In this document: piece after piece, positions 15,415-26,077 of the stretch
How positions within the stretch are numbered: position 1 is the first letter of the stretch
Layout of the letters: each line of letters starts with the position of its first letter
Notes under the pieces: model-generated
Told to the model about the DNA's origin: nothing
What the model saw: only the letters and a program-made list of their open reading frames with translations
Database searches by the model: none
Position numbers and translations under genes: made by a program
Source: an uncultured delta proteobacterium
GTDB taxonomy: Bacteria; Myxococcota_A; Polyangia; Haliangiales; Haliangiaceae
Direction of reading: 5' to 3'
Assembly (NCBI GenBank): GCA_900696455.1
Contig: CAADGB010000505.1
Location: forward strand, 1-57,199
Length of the DNA: 57,199 nucleotides

Positions 15415-18279
15415 CTACTCGAACGCGACCACGTGCGCCGCCCACGAGCCCGGGTCGGCGCGCAGCCGGTCCGCGCGCAGCGCCGCCAGCGCGCGCGCCG
15501 GTGGCTCGCCGGTGGCGACGCGCTCGCGCAGCTCGGCGAAGAAGACCGCCGCCTCGGCGTCGGGGATGTCGACGGTGGGCGCGATCACCGCGCGCGCGCC
15601 GGCGGCGAGGAAGGCGTCGGGCAGGCTCCAGCGCTGCACCAGGTAGGGCGCGACCTCGGCGGCGCGGCAGGCGGCGAGGACCACCACCGGCGCGGCCGGC
15701 AGGCGGGCCCGACGCAGCTCGGCCGCGGTCAGCGCCCAGCGGCCGTCGCCGGCCGCGGTCAGGGCGAGGAACGACTCGTCGGCGACGGCGAGGTCGACCT
15801 GGCCGTGGGCGTGGACCTCGGCGTAGGTGGCGGTGGCCAGCTCGGCCAGCACCCGCGGCGGCGTGGCCTCCGCGCCGCGCAGCGCGGCCACGCCGGCCGG
15901 GACGTCGATCGCGCGCAGCGCGGGCAGGGCGAGCGCGGCGGGCGGCGTCACGTCGCCGACGATCAGCTCGCGGCGCGGCGCGCTCGGCGCCGCCGCCGGC
16001 GCGCGCACGACGAACGCCCACGGCAGCTCCGGCGGCAGCAGGTCGGCGCGGCCGTGCAGCGGCGGACGGGCGTGGACGTCGACGCGGTCGCAGCCGGCCA
16101 GGCGTCCGCGCAGCGCCGGCGGCACCAGCTCGTCGCCGCGCCAGGCGCCCGGCCGCGCGAACGTGCGGCGGGCGCCCGCCAGCGCTCCGGCAGCGTCGAT
16201 GACGACCGCGGTGCTGCGGTCGTCGTCGGCCGAGGCCACCAGGGCGCAGCGCGTGGGCGCGGGCGCGCCCAGCTCGGCGGCCGCGAGCGTCACGACCTCC
16301 GCCCAGGCCTCGCGCCGGCCCGCCTCGTCGATCTGCGTCGAGACGAGCCAGGTGCGCTTGTGGGCGTCGGCGGGGCCGGTGAAGCGGGGCGCCAGCGCCT
16401 GCAGGCGCGCGGCGGCGCCGGGGGCCTCGACCTCGAGGCGCGCGGCGGCGAGCTCGGCGAGGTCGGCGGCGCCGGCGGCGCGGGCGGCGGCGATCCACGC
16501 GCGCGCCCGCTCGCGATCCTCGGCGCGCCCGGTCATGAGCGCGCGGTTGACCATGAACCCCACCTCCTGATCGGCGGGGGCCTCGTCGCAGGCGTCGGGC
16601 GCCGGCGCCGTGAGGCTCGGCGCGCCGTCCTGGATGTCGAGGAGCGCCAGCCCCAGCTCGGCGTAGCGTGCGCGCAGGCAGCCAGCCTGGCCGTCGCCGG
16701 CCCGCGCCCGGATCTCGGCGAAGGTCGCGCGCGCCAGCGCGCCTTGCTGGCGCGCGCGCCGGAGCTCGGCGACCTGGGCGAGCGCGTTGTCCTCGGGACC
16801 GACCGCGCCGTCGGCAGCGAAGCCGCGCTCGGCCGCGCGCGCCCAGCGCTCGGCCTCGGGGTACATGGGCAGGGCGCTGTACAGCTCGGCCAGCGCCTCG
16901 GCGAGCTTGGCGCAGCGGTACGCCCACGCCCGCGGGTCACAGCCGGCGTGGGCCTCGAGCAGGAGCACCTCGGCCCGCGGGCGGTCGCCGGCGTGGAGGA
17001 GCCCGAGCGCGCGCTGTTCGGTGGCGAGGAGCGCGAACCACGGGTCACCGGTGCGCGCCGCGTGGGCGGCCAGCTCGTCGGCGCGCGCCGGGCCCAGGCC
17101 GAGGACGACCAGCGCGCCGACCTTCAGATCGGTGGCGGCCGCGCCGGCGCGCTCGAGGCGCGCGAGCAGCGGCAGGGCGTCGTCGGGGGCGAGCTGCCCC
17201 GTCACGAGCTGGCGGTAGGCGGCGGCCAGCGGGCCGCGCACCCTGAGGTCGAGGGCGGCGGCGCGCGCGACCGCCGCGCGCGCGCCGTCGTGGCCGCTCA
17301 CCTCGTCGAGGGCGGCGGCCAGCGGCGCCAGGGCCAGGACCTCGTCGCGGGTGGTCGCGCCGCGCAGCGCGTCGAGGAAGTAGAGGCGGGCCAGCCCGGG
17401 GCGGGCCCGCGCCTGCTCGGCCGACAGCGGCGGACCGGTGTGCGCGACCATGGCGGCGGCGGCGGCGCTCCACCGCGCGAACGCGTCGAGGCGCTCGCGC
17501 ACCGGCGCGGCCAGGGCCCGGGCGCGCGCGCCCGCCTCCTCGGACCAGCCGGCCTCGCCGGCGGCGGCCACGGCCTCGAGCTCGGCGGCGGCGGTGGCCG
17601 GCAGCCCGAGGTCGCGGAGCGCCAGGGCCCGGTTCCAGCGCGCCGGCGGGGAGGGGGCCGCGGCCAGCGCGCGATCGGCGGCGGCCAGGGCGTCGGCCGG
17701 TCGCCCCGCCAGCAGCGCCAGCGCCGCCAGATCGGCGTCGCGCGCCGGCGACGGTGGCAGCGCGGCCAGGGTCGCCGCCGCGCGCTCGAGATCCCCGCCC
17801 AGGGCCTGGGCCGCGGCCAGCGCGGCCAGCTCGCCGCGCCGCTCCAGCTCGGCCATCGCCGCCAGCGGCACCAGCTCCCTGGCGCCGCCGCTGCGGGCGA
17901 CGTCGTACGGTCGGTGACGATCGAGGGCCGCCGCGCTCCAGCGGACCTCGACCGCGCGGGTGTCGGCGAGGGCCAGCGTCAGCGGCGCGACGTCGCGCTC
18001 GCCGCCGCGCGGCCAGACCCACACCACCGCCGCGGCGGCCGCGGCCAGGGCGCCGACCGCCACCAGCGCCACGAGCGGCGACCGTCCCCGCCGCGGCCGG
18101 GCGGTCGCGGTGGCCGGCGCCTGCCGCAGCGAGACGTCGAGTCCGGCCAGATCGCCCAGCTCGGCCTGGCAGCGCGCGCACCCGGCCAGGTGCGCGAGCA
18201 CGGCGGCCTCGCGCTCGACGGCGACCTCGCCGTCGAAGTAGCGCGCGGTCTCGTCACAGGAAACGGGGGGTTCCGCCAT
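15415..18279 (-). CDS. Anti-sigma-type zinc finger / TM / TPR / CHAT-protease protein
   Basis: A 954-aa protein with an unusual domain order. Residues 8-37 form an anti-sigma zinc-binding domain (C8, H30, C34, C37; HxxxCxxC). Residues 68-91 are one transmembrane helix after a basic stretch. About 100-690 is an Ala-rich helical repeat region with TPR features. The last 250 residues are a CHAT (caspase-like) protease domain with candidate dyad His825 (VHAHG) and Cys871 (VVLAAC), followed by the CHAT signature SLPDAFLAAGARAVIAP and a terminal GSWAAHVV. By the positive-inside rule the zinc finger is cytoplasmic and TPR-CHAT extracytoplasmic (inference). ATG 18279 is chosen because it directly precedes the zinc finger. 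An ECF sigma gene lies 0.7 kb upstream on the same strand. Confidence 0.85.
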   Translation of the reverse strand: MAEPPVSCDETARYFDGEVAVEREAAVLAHLAGCARCQAELGDLAGLDVSLRQAPATATARPRRGRSPLVALVAVGALAAAAAAVVWVWPRGGERDVAPLTLALADTRAVEVRWSAAALDRHRPYDVARSGGARELVPLAAMAELERRGELAALAAAQALGGDLERAAATLAALPPSPARDADLAALALLAGRPADALAAADRALAAAPSPPARWNRALALRDLGLPATAAAELEAVAAAGEAGWSEEAGARARALAAPVRERLDAFARWSAAAAAMVAHTGPPLSAEQARARPGLARLYFLDALRGATTRDEVLALAPLAAALDEVSGHDGARAAVARAAALDLRVRGPLAAAYRQLVTGQLAPDDALPLLARLERAGAAATDLKVGALVVLGLGPARADELAAHAARTGDPWFALLATEQRALGLLHAGDRPRAEVLLLEAHAGCDPRAWAYRCAKLAEALAELYSALPMYPEAERWARAAERGFAADGAVGPEDNALAQVAELRRARQQGALARATFAEIRARAGDGQAGCLRARYAELGLALLDIQDGAPSLTAPAPDACDEAPADQEVGFMVNRALMTGRAEDRERARAWIAAARAAGAADLAELAAARLEVEAPGAAARLQALAPRFTGPADAHKRTWLVSTQIDEAGRREAWAEVVTLAAAELGAPAPTRCALVASADDDRSTAVVIDAAGALAGARRTFARPGAWRGDELVPPALRGRLAGCDRVDVHARPPLHGRADLLPPELPWAFVVRAPAAAPSAPRRELIVGDVTPPAALALPALRAIDVPAGVAALRGAEATPPRVLAELATATYAEVHAHGQVDLAVADESFLALTAAGDGRWALTAAELRRARLPAAPVVVLAACRAAEVAPYLVQRWSLPDAFLAAGARAVIAPTVDIPDAEAAVFFAELRERVATGEPPARALAALRADRLRADPGSWAAHVVAFE

Positions 18280-18305
18280 GGGGGCTCGTGGGGGTTCGGT
18301 TCGAC

Positions 18306-18318
18306 CACACAAGGTGTG
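18306..18318. promoter_or_regulatory. Small inverted repeat upstream of the CHAT gene
   Basis: CACAC-AAG-GTGTG is a perfect 5-bp inverted repeat, 27 nt upstream of the CHAT start codon. It is a possible operator or leader hairpin. Confidence 0.25.
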
Positions 18319-18347
18319 CAGGATCGACGCACGGGGGCCGGGTTCTT

Positions 18348-18359
18348 CCCGGCGAACAT
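18348..18359 (-). promoter_or_regulatory. Motif ATGTTCGCCGGG upstream of the CHAT gene
   Basis: On the minus strand ATGTTCGCCGGG lies about 68 nt before the CHAT start. A near-identical ATGTTCGGCGGG lies about 36 nt before the ECF sigma start (19656-19667). The GTTCG core could be an ECF-type -10 element, suggesting both genes belong to one regulon (inference). Confidence 0.3.
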
Positions 18360-18511
18360 TCGCATTCACACCGGGGCCGGAGCGCTCTCGATGGAGCGCC
18401 CCGCTCGGTTCGCAAACCTGCCGCAGCCTGCCAGCGCCGCCCGCCCCTCGGTCGGGGAAGATGTCCTGGCATCCGCGTCGTACAAGGTACCAACCCCGTC
18501 AGGAGCTCGCC

Positions 18512-18979
18512 GTGATCCGCACCCTCCGCAACCGCATCGCCCTCTCGCTCGTCGCCGCCTCGCTCGCGTTCGGCGCGGCCTGCGTCGACGACGCCACCAC
18601 CACCAGCGCGGAGCAGGCGCTCCAGGCGTGCGAGACCGTCTGGTTCGACGGCAAGTGGCCGCAGACGACCACCTGGAACGGGTACGCGCCCCAGGCGATC
18701 TCGGCCAACCAGCTCTTCGTGATCCTGCCCGGCGATCCCAACCGCTCCCACTACCTCATCGCCCAGGTCGACTGGGAGCAGGGCCGGGTGGCCACGCTCA
18801 CCAAGTTCGCGCCGACCAAGATGAACGCCGTCCTGAGGACCCTCGCGGTCGAGCCCGGCGGCATCAACCTGCTCGGCGGCACCCGCCCGCCCATCAAGTA
18901 CCCGCCGGGCACCGACTGGGGCCAGGGGCTGGTCCAGATCCACGCCAACCTCGACGCCGTCCCGGTGATCGGGAAGTGA
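18512..18979 (+). CDS. Small secreted (lipo)protein of unknown function
   Basis: The 155-aa protein has a signal peptide (about residues 1-22) ending SLAFGAAC, a plausible lipobox. A threonine/serine stretch follows, then a compact domain with ACETVWFDGKWPQTTTWNGYA and LVQIHANLDAVPVIGK at the end. GTG 18512 is preceded by AGGAG with ideal spacing, which decides the start. It lies on the plus strand between the CHAT gene and the ECF sigma gene, divergent from the former and convergent with the latter. No family is recognised. Because of its place in the sigma/CHAT locus it is a candidate regulon member or protease substrate, but that is speculation. Confidence 0.75.
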   Translation: MIRTLRNRIALSLVAASLAFGAACVDDATTTSAEQALQACETVWFDGKWPQTTTWNGYAPQAISANQLFVILPGDPNRSHYLIAQVDWEQGRVATLTKFAPTKMNAVLRTLAVEPGGINLLGGTRPPIKYPPGTDWGQGLVQIHANLDAVPVIGK

Positions 18980-19001
18980 CCCCGGCGGGCTCGCCGCCGC
19001 G

Positions 19002-19619
19002 TCACGCACGGCGGGTCCCTCCCGTGCCGCGCGGCGCGGCGCGGTCGTCGTCCTCGTCGCCCTCGCGCGCCGGTCCGCCCAGCGCCACCCGCAGGCGGCG
19101 GCGCGCCCGCAGCACCCGCGTGCCGACGGTCGCCACCGGCACGCCGAGGCGCGCGGCGATGTCCTTGTAGGACAGCCCGTCGAACGCGAACAGCTCGAAC
19201 GCCGCGCGCAGCTCGTCGGGCAGGCGGGGTAGCGCGGCGCGGATGTCCTCGGCGTCGAGGGCCTCCCACCAGGCGCGATCCTCGGGGAGCGGCGCCGCCA
19301 CCTGCGCCTCGTCGATGGGCTGGTCCGGACGCGCGCTCCGCCGCCGCACCTGGTCGATGAACAGGTTGTGCATGACCCGGGTCATCCACGCCACGTGGTT
19401 GACGTCGGCGGGCAGGCGATCGAAGTGGGCGACCGTCTTCAGGAGCACGTCCTGGACCAGGTCGTCCGGGTCGAAGCTCGACCGGCAGAGCTTGCGGGCC
19501 ACGGCGAGGAGCGTGGCGTGGTGGGCGCGGGTCAGCTCGTCGAGCCGACGCCGGTCGCGGACCTCGGCCAGCGAGACCACCTGTTCGCCCGAGGCTCCTT
19601 CCCTGGCTACCTTCGACAT
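19002..19619 (-). CDS. ECF-family RNA polymerase sigma factor
   Basis: A 205-aa sigma-70 family factor with region 2 (ARKLCRSSFDPDDLVQDVLLKTVAHFDRL, keeping the acidic DPDD patch and VQD) and region 4 (LPRLPDELRAAFELFAFDGLSYKDIAARLGVPVATVGTRVLRARRRL, a helix-turn-helix for the -35 box). The C-terminal tail is acidic then basic. ATG 19619 is the first Met before conserved sequence; longer in-frame starts add Arg/Pro-rich filler. A GC-rich hairpin (19636-19657) sits in its leader. The only anti-sigma-like domain in the window is the zinc finger of the CHAT protein 0.7 kb downstream, its likely partner. Confidence 0.93.
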   Translation of the reverse strand: MSKVAREGASGEQVVSLAEVRDRRRLDELTRAHHATLLAVARKLCRSSFDPDDLVQDVLLKTVAHFDRLPADVNHVAWMTRVMHNLFIDQVRRRSARPDQPIDEAQVAAPLPEDRAWWEALDAEDIRAALPRLPDELRAAFELFAFDGLSYKDIAARLGVPVATVGTRVLRARRRLRVALGGPAREGDEDDDRAAPRGTGGTRRA

Positions 19620-19635
19620 GCGCGCGACCGAGACC

Positions 19636-19657
19636 GGGTGCGGTCCGTGCCGCACCC
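19636..19657 (-). promoter_or_regulatory. Hairpin in the ECF sigma leader
   Basis: GGGTGCGG (19636-19643) and CCGCACCC (19650-19657) form a perfect 8-bp stem with a 6-nt loop, 17 nt upstream of the sigma start codon. It could limit translation or be an operator. It directly abuts the ATGTTCGGCGGG motif. Confidence 0.35.
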
Positions 19658-19789
19658 CGCCGAACATACCCGACCTTGGACACCCGCTGCCGGGTCGGGT
19701 GTGGATCGGATCCGGACGCGCCTCGGTGCGCGCCCGCGCGCGCCGTGGGGCCGGCGGGGCCGGCTCGATCGCGCAGCGCGGGCGCAGGG

Positions 19790-19999
19790 TCAGGCGACCA
19801 TGGCCAGGGACGGGCGGGCGATCGTGCGCTCGCGCTCGGCGCGCAGCCAGGCCTCGAGGTCCTTCACCTCGAGCCGGACGAGGCCCCCGAGGCGGTAGAC
19901 GGGCAGGGGGGCGACCTCGCGCCGGGCCATGTTGCGGCACCAGCGCTCCGAGCGGTGAACGAGGGCGGCGATCTGCTTCCAGGTCTCGACGTAGGTCAT
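19790..19999 (-). CDS. Excisionase/AlpA-like helix-turn-helix DNA-binding protein
   Basis: A 69-aa protein with the compact winged-helix layout of MerR/excisionase-like proteins: TWKQIAALVHRSERWCRNMARR as the HTH, PLPVYRLGGLVRLEVKDLEAWLRAERER as wing and closing helix. The start ATG 19999 has GGAG about 8 nt upstream. No integrase, phage or plasmid gene lies nearby, so it is an orphan. It may be a remnant of an element or a small local regulator. It sits 170 bp upstream of the ECF sigma gene on the same strand. Confidence 0.75.
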   Translation of the reverse strand: MTYVETWKQIAALVHRSERWCRNMARREVAPLPVYRLGGLVRLEVKDLEAWLRAERERTIARPSLAMVA

Positions 20000-20294
20000 G
20001 GCTCAGGCTCCGGGTTGGTCCGTGGTTCGGTCACCCCTTGCGAGGGGCTCGCCGGGATGACGGGCCGGGTCCGGCTTCTTCCCGCAGGAGATGATCGCCG
20101 GCGTGCGATTCGTGCCGCTGGCGGCCGAGGCCGGCCGGCGATGACCGGAACCGGCGCCCGACGGCGCTTGCGGCGCGCGCGGATCCCCCGCCCCGACGTC
20201 GCAGCGTGCCGTCCCCGGCGGCAAGCGCTGGCAAAGGTCGCTACCCCCGCGAGGCCGCGGTCGCGGCCCGCCGCCCCGGGCGTACAACGAGCAC
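20000..20294. other. Intergenic region, no gene seen
   Basis: This 295-bp divergent region lies between the HTH gene and the next plus-strand gene. It is somewhat less GC-rich in its first half. TACAAC (20283-20288) lies 6 nt before ATG 20295, a weak -10 box in the leaderless position. No RNA gene or repeat was recognised. Open minus-strand frames here lack homology-like features. Confidence 0.3.

Positions 20295-23689: not shown

Positions 23690-26077
<2,388 letters not shown>

Follow-up and report, generated by a model that had tools for sequence, protein, structure and literature searches.

The 57,199-nucleotide stretch of DNA analyzed here, contig CAADGB010000505.1 of an uncultured delta proteobacterium from the Haliangiaceae (GenBank assembly GCA_900696455.1) and hereafter called the window, carries on its minus strand, at positions 15,415 to 18,279, the gene of a 954-residue protein that, judged by its sequence and modeled structure, is a DdvA-type transmembrane anti-sigma factor. 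Together with a nearby extracytoplasmic function (ECF) sigma factor and a small predicted lipoprotein, this protein would make up a DdvA-type membrane signaling module, and we give this overall scheme a probability of roughly 0.7. Its computed support comes from homology, fold, synteny with the sigma gene, a conserved His/Cys pair, linkage of the lipoprotein gene, and a promoter motif. The anti-sigma factor itself is of a type already described, and the idea advanced in an earlier interpretation of the window from its letters alone (the sequence-only reading), an anti-sigma factor with its own protease across the membrane, exists in the literature. The lipoprotein partner with its ECF-type promoters appears undescribed in the literature that was searched, which did not extend to the DdvA papers themselves.

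Homology and Fold of the Anti-sigma Factor

The assignment draws on Pfam, phmmer, inspection of the sequence, an AlphaFold model, and fold comparison. Myxococcus DdvA is a transmembrane anti-sigma factor whose cryogenic electron microscopy structures are deposited as 8rot and 8rw5, according to the PDB titles and the review PMC12288465; the same review names DdvS as the ECF sigma partner of DdvA in control of an island combining CRISPR with a cyclic oligonucleotide-based antiphage signaling system (CBASS), and cites Bernal-Bernal et al. (2024, Sci Adv) as the DdvA study. A phmmer search of PDB sequences matched both entries over their full length (E = 3.3e-64, query 37-984 against 5-991, with query numbering that begins 30 residues upstream of the ATG of the anti-sigma gene), and 8rlz, the isolated N-terminus titled "Antisigma factor DdvA", was matched weakly (E = 0.06). 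When the model was compared with known structures, 8rot was recovered with a Z score of 38.1 over 837 residues, the TPR-CHAT protein of Craspase (TPR, tetratricopeptide repeat) with 25.7, and separase with 21.4. The DdvA/DdvS pair of Myxococcus xanthus therefore resembles the window pair in full-length homology, domain order, fold, zinc finger, and possession of an ECF sigma partner. DdvA and the window protein are about 30% identical, and DdvA has a His and a Cys at the equivalent places, with AxHG where the window protein has HxHG. Since an anti-sigma factor with a caspase-like domain across the membrane is the published DdvA design, the arrangement proposed in the sequence-only reading agrees with both fold and homology, and its domain order is not new.

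The individual domains can be placed with some precision on the open reading frame that begins with the ATG at 18,279. Cys8, His30, Cys34, Cys37, the hydrophobic helix at residues 68-91, and the candidate pair His825 and Cys871 were all found exactly where they had been claimed. The zinc-finger (ASD) region comprises residues 1-53 (18,121-18,279, minus strand), with the finger itself spanning approximately 8-53, and is the expected sigma binder on the basis of Pfam, the 8rlz match, and the alignment. Its zf-HC2 match falls narrowly below the Pfam cutoff (21.8 versus 22.2 bits), and the ligands His30, Cys34, and Cys37 are kept in 29 of the 29 aligned sequences covering those positions. The AlphaFold model (mean pLDDT 89.8, pTM 0.82) has a three-helix N-terminus in the zinc-finger region, a transmembrane (TM) helix at 68-88, a TPR-like superhelix at 139-670, and then the CHAT domain, so that a CHCC zinc finger followed by a single TM helix is seen in sequence and model alike. 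The TPR-like repeats of the earlier interpretation hold up as this superhelix and were not detected as TPRs by Pfam. The caspase-like CHAT domain occupies residues 679-954 (15,415-16,245, minus strand); it is recognized by Pfam (PF12770, 2.4e-16), it has the His825/Cys871 dyad, and its fold is intact in the model. No other CHAT gene turned up in the 7.98-Mb assembly.

We infer from the positive-inside rule that the zinc finger is cytoplasmic and the TPR-CHAT portion periplasmic, the motif RPRRGR lying directly before the hydrophobic helix. Cys447, Cys456, Cys678, and Cys730 are invariant in 33/33 sequences, a pattern consistent with disulfides in an oxidizing, noncytoplasmic compartment. DdvA is likewise reported to be dimeric with a periplasmic TPR-CHAT.

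Is the CHAT domain a protease? Catalytic conservation was judged on homologues from unbiased whole-protein searches rather than on loci found by pattern, because the search patterns for the latter include the His and Cys residues. Both His825 and Cys871 are retained in 25/25 of these homologues, some with HA in place of HG, which answers favorably the question of whether close relatives would lose the pair. This conservation is more than a dead scaffold would need, and the intact fold argues in the same direction. The rival explanation is that CHAT is a scaffold or pseudoprotease, TPR-CHAT merely senses and dimerizes, and DegS- and RseP-like proteases free the sigma factor. The His-Cys site of DdvA is reportedly incomplete, which would make protease activity uncertain; two strong M50/site-2-type proteases are encoded in the genome, and other anti-sigma factors are cut by DegS and then RseP (PMC10028731). 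On balance we consider the pseudoprotease account possible at odds clearly short of even, and CHAT as the initiating protease an even bet or slightly better.

The Sigma Factor and Its Gene Order

The probable cognate partner is an ECF sigma factor of 205 residues encoded at 19,002-19,619 on the minus strand, identified by region 2 and region 4 matches and by the presence of its homologues at DdvA loci. It lies 722 bp upstream of the anti-sigma gene on the same strand, in agreement with the roughly 0.7 kb given in the sequence-only reading. Synteny of the two genes, on which that reading had placed weight, is found in most relatives: the sigma gene adjoins the anti-sigma gene, a few tens of bases upstream, in nearly every locus of the family with both ends present. 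Among 75 named loci from GTDB genomes, it abuts the anti-sigma gene in 35, and 13 others are cut by contig ends.

The nearest homologues of the window sigma factor (59-77% identity) are especially informative. Each of those in genomes G025, G026, G027, and G029 has a DdvA gene as its neighbor, and in G025, G026, and G029 it lies immediately upstream of that gene. In these three genomes and others the order is lipoprotein gene, reversed, followed by sigma and anti-sigma genes in the forward direction, and in the window and G027 the lipoprotein gene, still reversed, sits between sigma and anti-sigma. G023 has its lipoprotein and anti-sigma genes on one contig and its sigma gene (77% identical to that of the window) on another. 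With G023 as the sole exception, the closest sigma relatives occur at DdvA loci, which favors a cognate pair with rearranged genes. An accidental pairing, in which the true partner would be some other one of about 25 sigma factors, could draw on the 722-bp gap with its opposite-strand gene and on the unlinked genes of G023, but the placement of the nearest homologues beside DdvA genes makes it very improbable.

A further gene may belong to the module. An open reading frame of 70 residues at 19,793-20,002 (minus strand), HTH_17-like and of the excisionase type by a weak Pfam match, is conserved: it precedes the sigma gene in the window and in G023 and G027, and it is also found upstream in G029.

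A Conserved Lipoprotein at DdvA Loci

The gene at 18,512-18,979 had been noticed as that of a small secreted protein inside the locus, a possible target or ligand. It is present and is a conserved partner, with two corrections: it lies on the opposite (plus) strand, and its product is a predicted lipoprotein. The 155-residue protein has a GTG start and a lipobox, FGAAC (Cys24), and was placed in a DdvA-associated family by a family hidden Markov model (HMM). A PROSITE-like lipobox rule is satisfied by 14/14 lipoprotein sequences, some of whose start codons were picked with the lipobox in view. No Pfam family matches the lipoprotein family.

Linkage of this family to DdvA is strong. A first HMM built from five seeds picked up nonseed members at seven additional loci (E 1e-16 to 6e-3), where the gene always neighbors sigma and runs on the opposite strand. 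Scanning 30 whole genomes of the bacterial family with an 11-sequence profile gave 14 strong matches in 11 genomes, all 14 at DdvA loci and usually divergent from the sigma gene; the sole other match in those genomes was weak (E = 3e-4). Over 241 genomes of the class, one further genome, G236, was matched. Genomes of the Myxococcaceae type usually have a small secreted protein or lipoprotein gene directly downstream of their DdvA-like genes, and a profile of these downstream lipoproteins gave 14 matches in 7 of 10 genomes, every one beside a DdvA-like gene (ten of the positions agree with listed DdvA loci and four were checked directly). Comparison of the divergent and downstream sets profile against profile returned a probability of 78-90%, which makes common descent of the two sets likely and leaves it short of proof. 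At one DdvSA locus (L051:2552-3874), two lipoprotein copies stand in tandem, one with a GGT-rich repeat stretch.

The sequences themselves are divergent. Only M1, W55, and P127 never vary, and the other members share 16-36% identity with the window protein. The core, residues 51-120, is modeled confidently by AlphaFold2 as a small beta-alpha fold, with poorly modeled termini, and its best matches in the PDB (Z of 6.8 or less) are small ribosomal or SRP-like folds that give no functional lead. These features bear on the suggestion that CHAT cleaves the lipoprotein as its substrate, in the way that Csx29 cleaves Csx30, with sigma release as a consequence. The shared predicted compartment, near-obligate linkage, and Craspase-like fold would fit such a role; with so few invariant residues and such low identity, however, no conserved cleavage-like motif is found, and a substrate induced by the sigma factor would be odd wiring. 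We regard this as unlikely.

Promoter Motifs

Two ECF-type promoter motifs lie within the module. The first, GGAAGATGTCCTGGCATCCGCGTC, at 18,456-18,479 on the plus strand, stands 56 bp ahead of the lipoprotein start codon and was found by a scan of orthologous promoters. The pattern GGAA-N16/17-CGT[AC], a typical ECF promoter shape, occurs within 130 bp upstream of the lipoprotein gene in 11/14 loci, a count that is somewhat optimistic because the pattern was derived from the same 14 promoters; in dinucleotide shuffles the mean was 0.1 and the maximum 2. The second motif, GGAAGAACCCGGCCCCCGTGCGTC, at 18,326-18,349 on the minus strand, came from a scan of the rearranged loci, in all three of which GGAA-N16-CGTC precedes the anti-sigma ATG, by 70 nt in the window and by 48 nt in G023 and G027. 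These motifs suggest that both the lipoprotein gene and the anti-sigma gene are targets of the sigma factor. Loci of the Myxococcus/Pyxidicoccus type (L076, L077, L079, L080, and L115), and also L125, have GGAAGATGG...CGTT about 110 bp before the sigma gene. A regulon search with GGGGAAGATN{12,14}CGTC gave few matches, mostly recurring and coding-like, from which nothing is inferred.

Proposed Mechanism and Its Relation to Known Systems

We propose that the neighboring ECF sigma factor is kept at the inner membrane by the cytoplasmic zinc finger, which a single TM helix links to a separase/Craspase-like TPR-CHAT domain in the periplasm. TPR-CHAT would receive a signal from the periplasm or envelope, probably through the conserved lipoprotein or modulated by it, and the anti-sigma factor would be cleaved or rearranged in response. 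Most simply, self-cleavage in trans would depend on CHAT, and a site-2 protease would act next; for DdvA, self-cleavage in trans and then RseP has reportedly been offered as a hypothesis. The released sigma factor would transcribe the lipoprotein and anti-sigma genes from their GGAA-N16-CGTC promoters, closing a feedback loop.

Several observations weigh against this scheme. Beyond the reportedly incomplete DdvA dyad, sigma linkage is not absolute, given that the window sigma gene is split from its anti-sigma gene by the lipoprotein gene and that of G023 is on another contig. Some relatives have no detectable lipoprotein, and the homologue in G236 (L198, G236:C604:4416-4871), from another family, is an orphan on an 8.7-kb contig with no DdvA gene. 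The main caution is that lipoprotein and anti-sigma divergences are not significantly correlated in a mirror-tree comparison (rho 0.17, p 0.14), and there is thus no sign of their co-evolution. That result, along with the conserved ECF-type promoter of the lipoprotein gene, suits a lipoprotein that is regulon output alone, an envelope protein made on demand that does not signal to the anti-sigma factor. Essential confinement of the lipoprotein to DdvA neighborhoods, in both the divergent and the downstream arrangement, argues the other way and leaves the output-only role a real but lesser possibility. That the lipoprotein acts on TPR-CHAT and is not mere output we put a shade below even odds.

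The scheme has parallels in other systems. Control of the RseA/DegS/RseP type likewise has a single-pass anti-sigma factor, an envelope signal, and stepwise proteolysis, as proposed here, and differs in that the window's anti-sigma factor may itself carry the protease that cuts first; RseA is not known to have the zinc-finger or the TPR-CHAT domains. RcsF- and NlpE-like proteins are envelope sensor lipoproteins, and the likeness is one of proposed role, a lipoprotein that may inform an inner-membrane regulator. Craspase Csx29 of type III-E CRISPR, with Csx30 and CASP-sigma, shares a TPR-CHAT fold (Z about 25), a His/Cys dyad, and an ECF sigma factor as output, but it belongs to a soluble RNA-guided complex and cuts a separate inhibitor (PMC10028731), whereas CHAT in the window is fused to the anti-sigma factor and predicted to be periplasmic. 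The type III-E analogy of the sequence-only reading survives as a likeness of fold and not as membership. Neither Cas7-11/gRAMP nor Csx30 is evident among the neighboring genes examined, with no search aimed at them.

Genome Context and Other DdvA-like Loci

The window locus differs from that of DdvA/DdvS in having its lipoprotein gene in the interval from sigma to anti-sigma gene, and no CBASS or CRISPR genes were seen next to it. The adjacent proteins scanned include no defense genes beyond weak helicase matches, so a CRISPR or CBASS island was rejected on these neighbors and the antiphage role that DdvS has in Myxococcus should not be carried over to the window locus. A UvrD-like helicase at 23,690-26,077 (plus strand) matches models of defense-associated helicases weakly.

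Relatives elsewhere vary in composition. Myxococcaceae paralogues at L098:5773-8565, L101, L106, and L083 have the TM helix and TPR-CHAT without a zinc finger and without a sigma gene directly upstream. In M. xanthus AM003 (L209), one such zinc-finger-less paralogue has a sigma gene and then another, shortened DdvA-like gene behind it. The strain examined did not yield the M. xanthus DdvA locus itself; the nearest paralogues there are L210, which has a lipoprotein gene downstream, and L093. Myxococcus-like DdvA loci also occur in BNCN01 records labeled Comamonas sp. KCTC 72670 (L136 and L140), a label that is probably wrong.

Implications

DdvA was reported in 2015 to be inactivated by an external signal that was then unknown (PMC4374960). 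With its conserved and apparently sigma-controlled gene beside DdvA-type genes, the lipoprotein is a specific candidate for the envelope component so far missing from DdvA signaling. Tentatively, and with a little less than an even chance, the DdvA-type anti-sigma factors of the Myxococcota may be three-part envelope switches in which a dedicated lipoprotein, induced by the sigma factor, is a ligand of the periplasmic caspase-like domain, a brake on it, or its substrate. This candidate makes the question of the DdvA signal testable in laboratory Myxococcus, and the scheme would reveal the wiring that couples a separase/caspase-like fold to transcription on the other side of a membrane.

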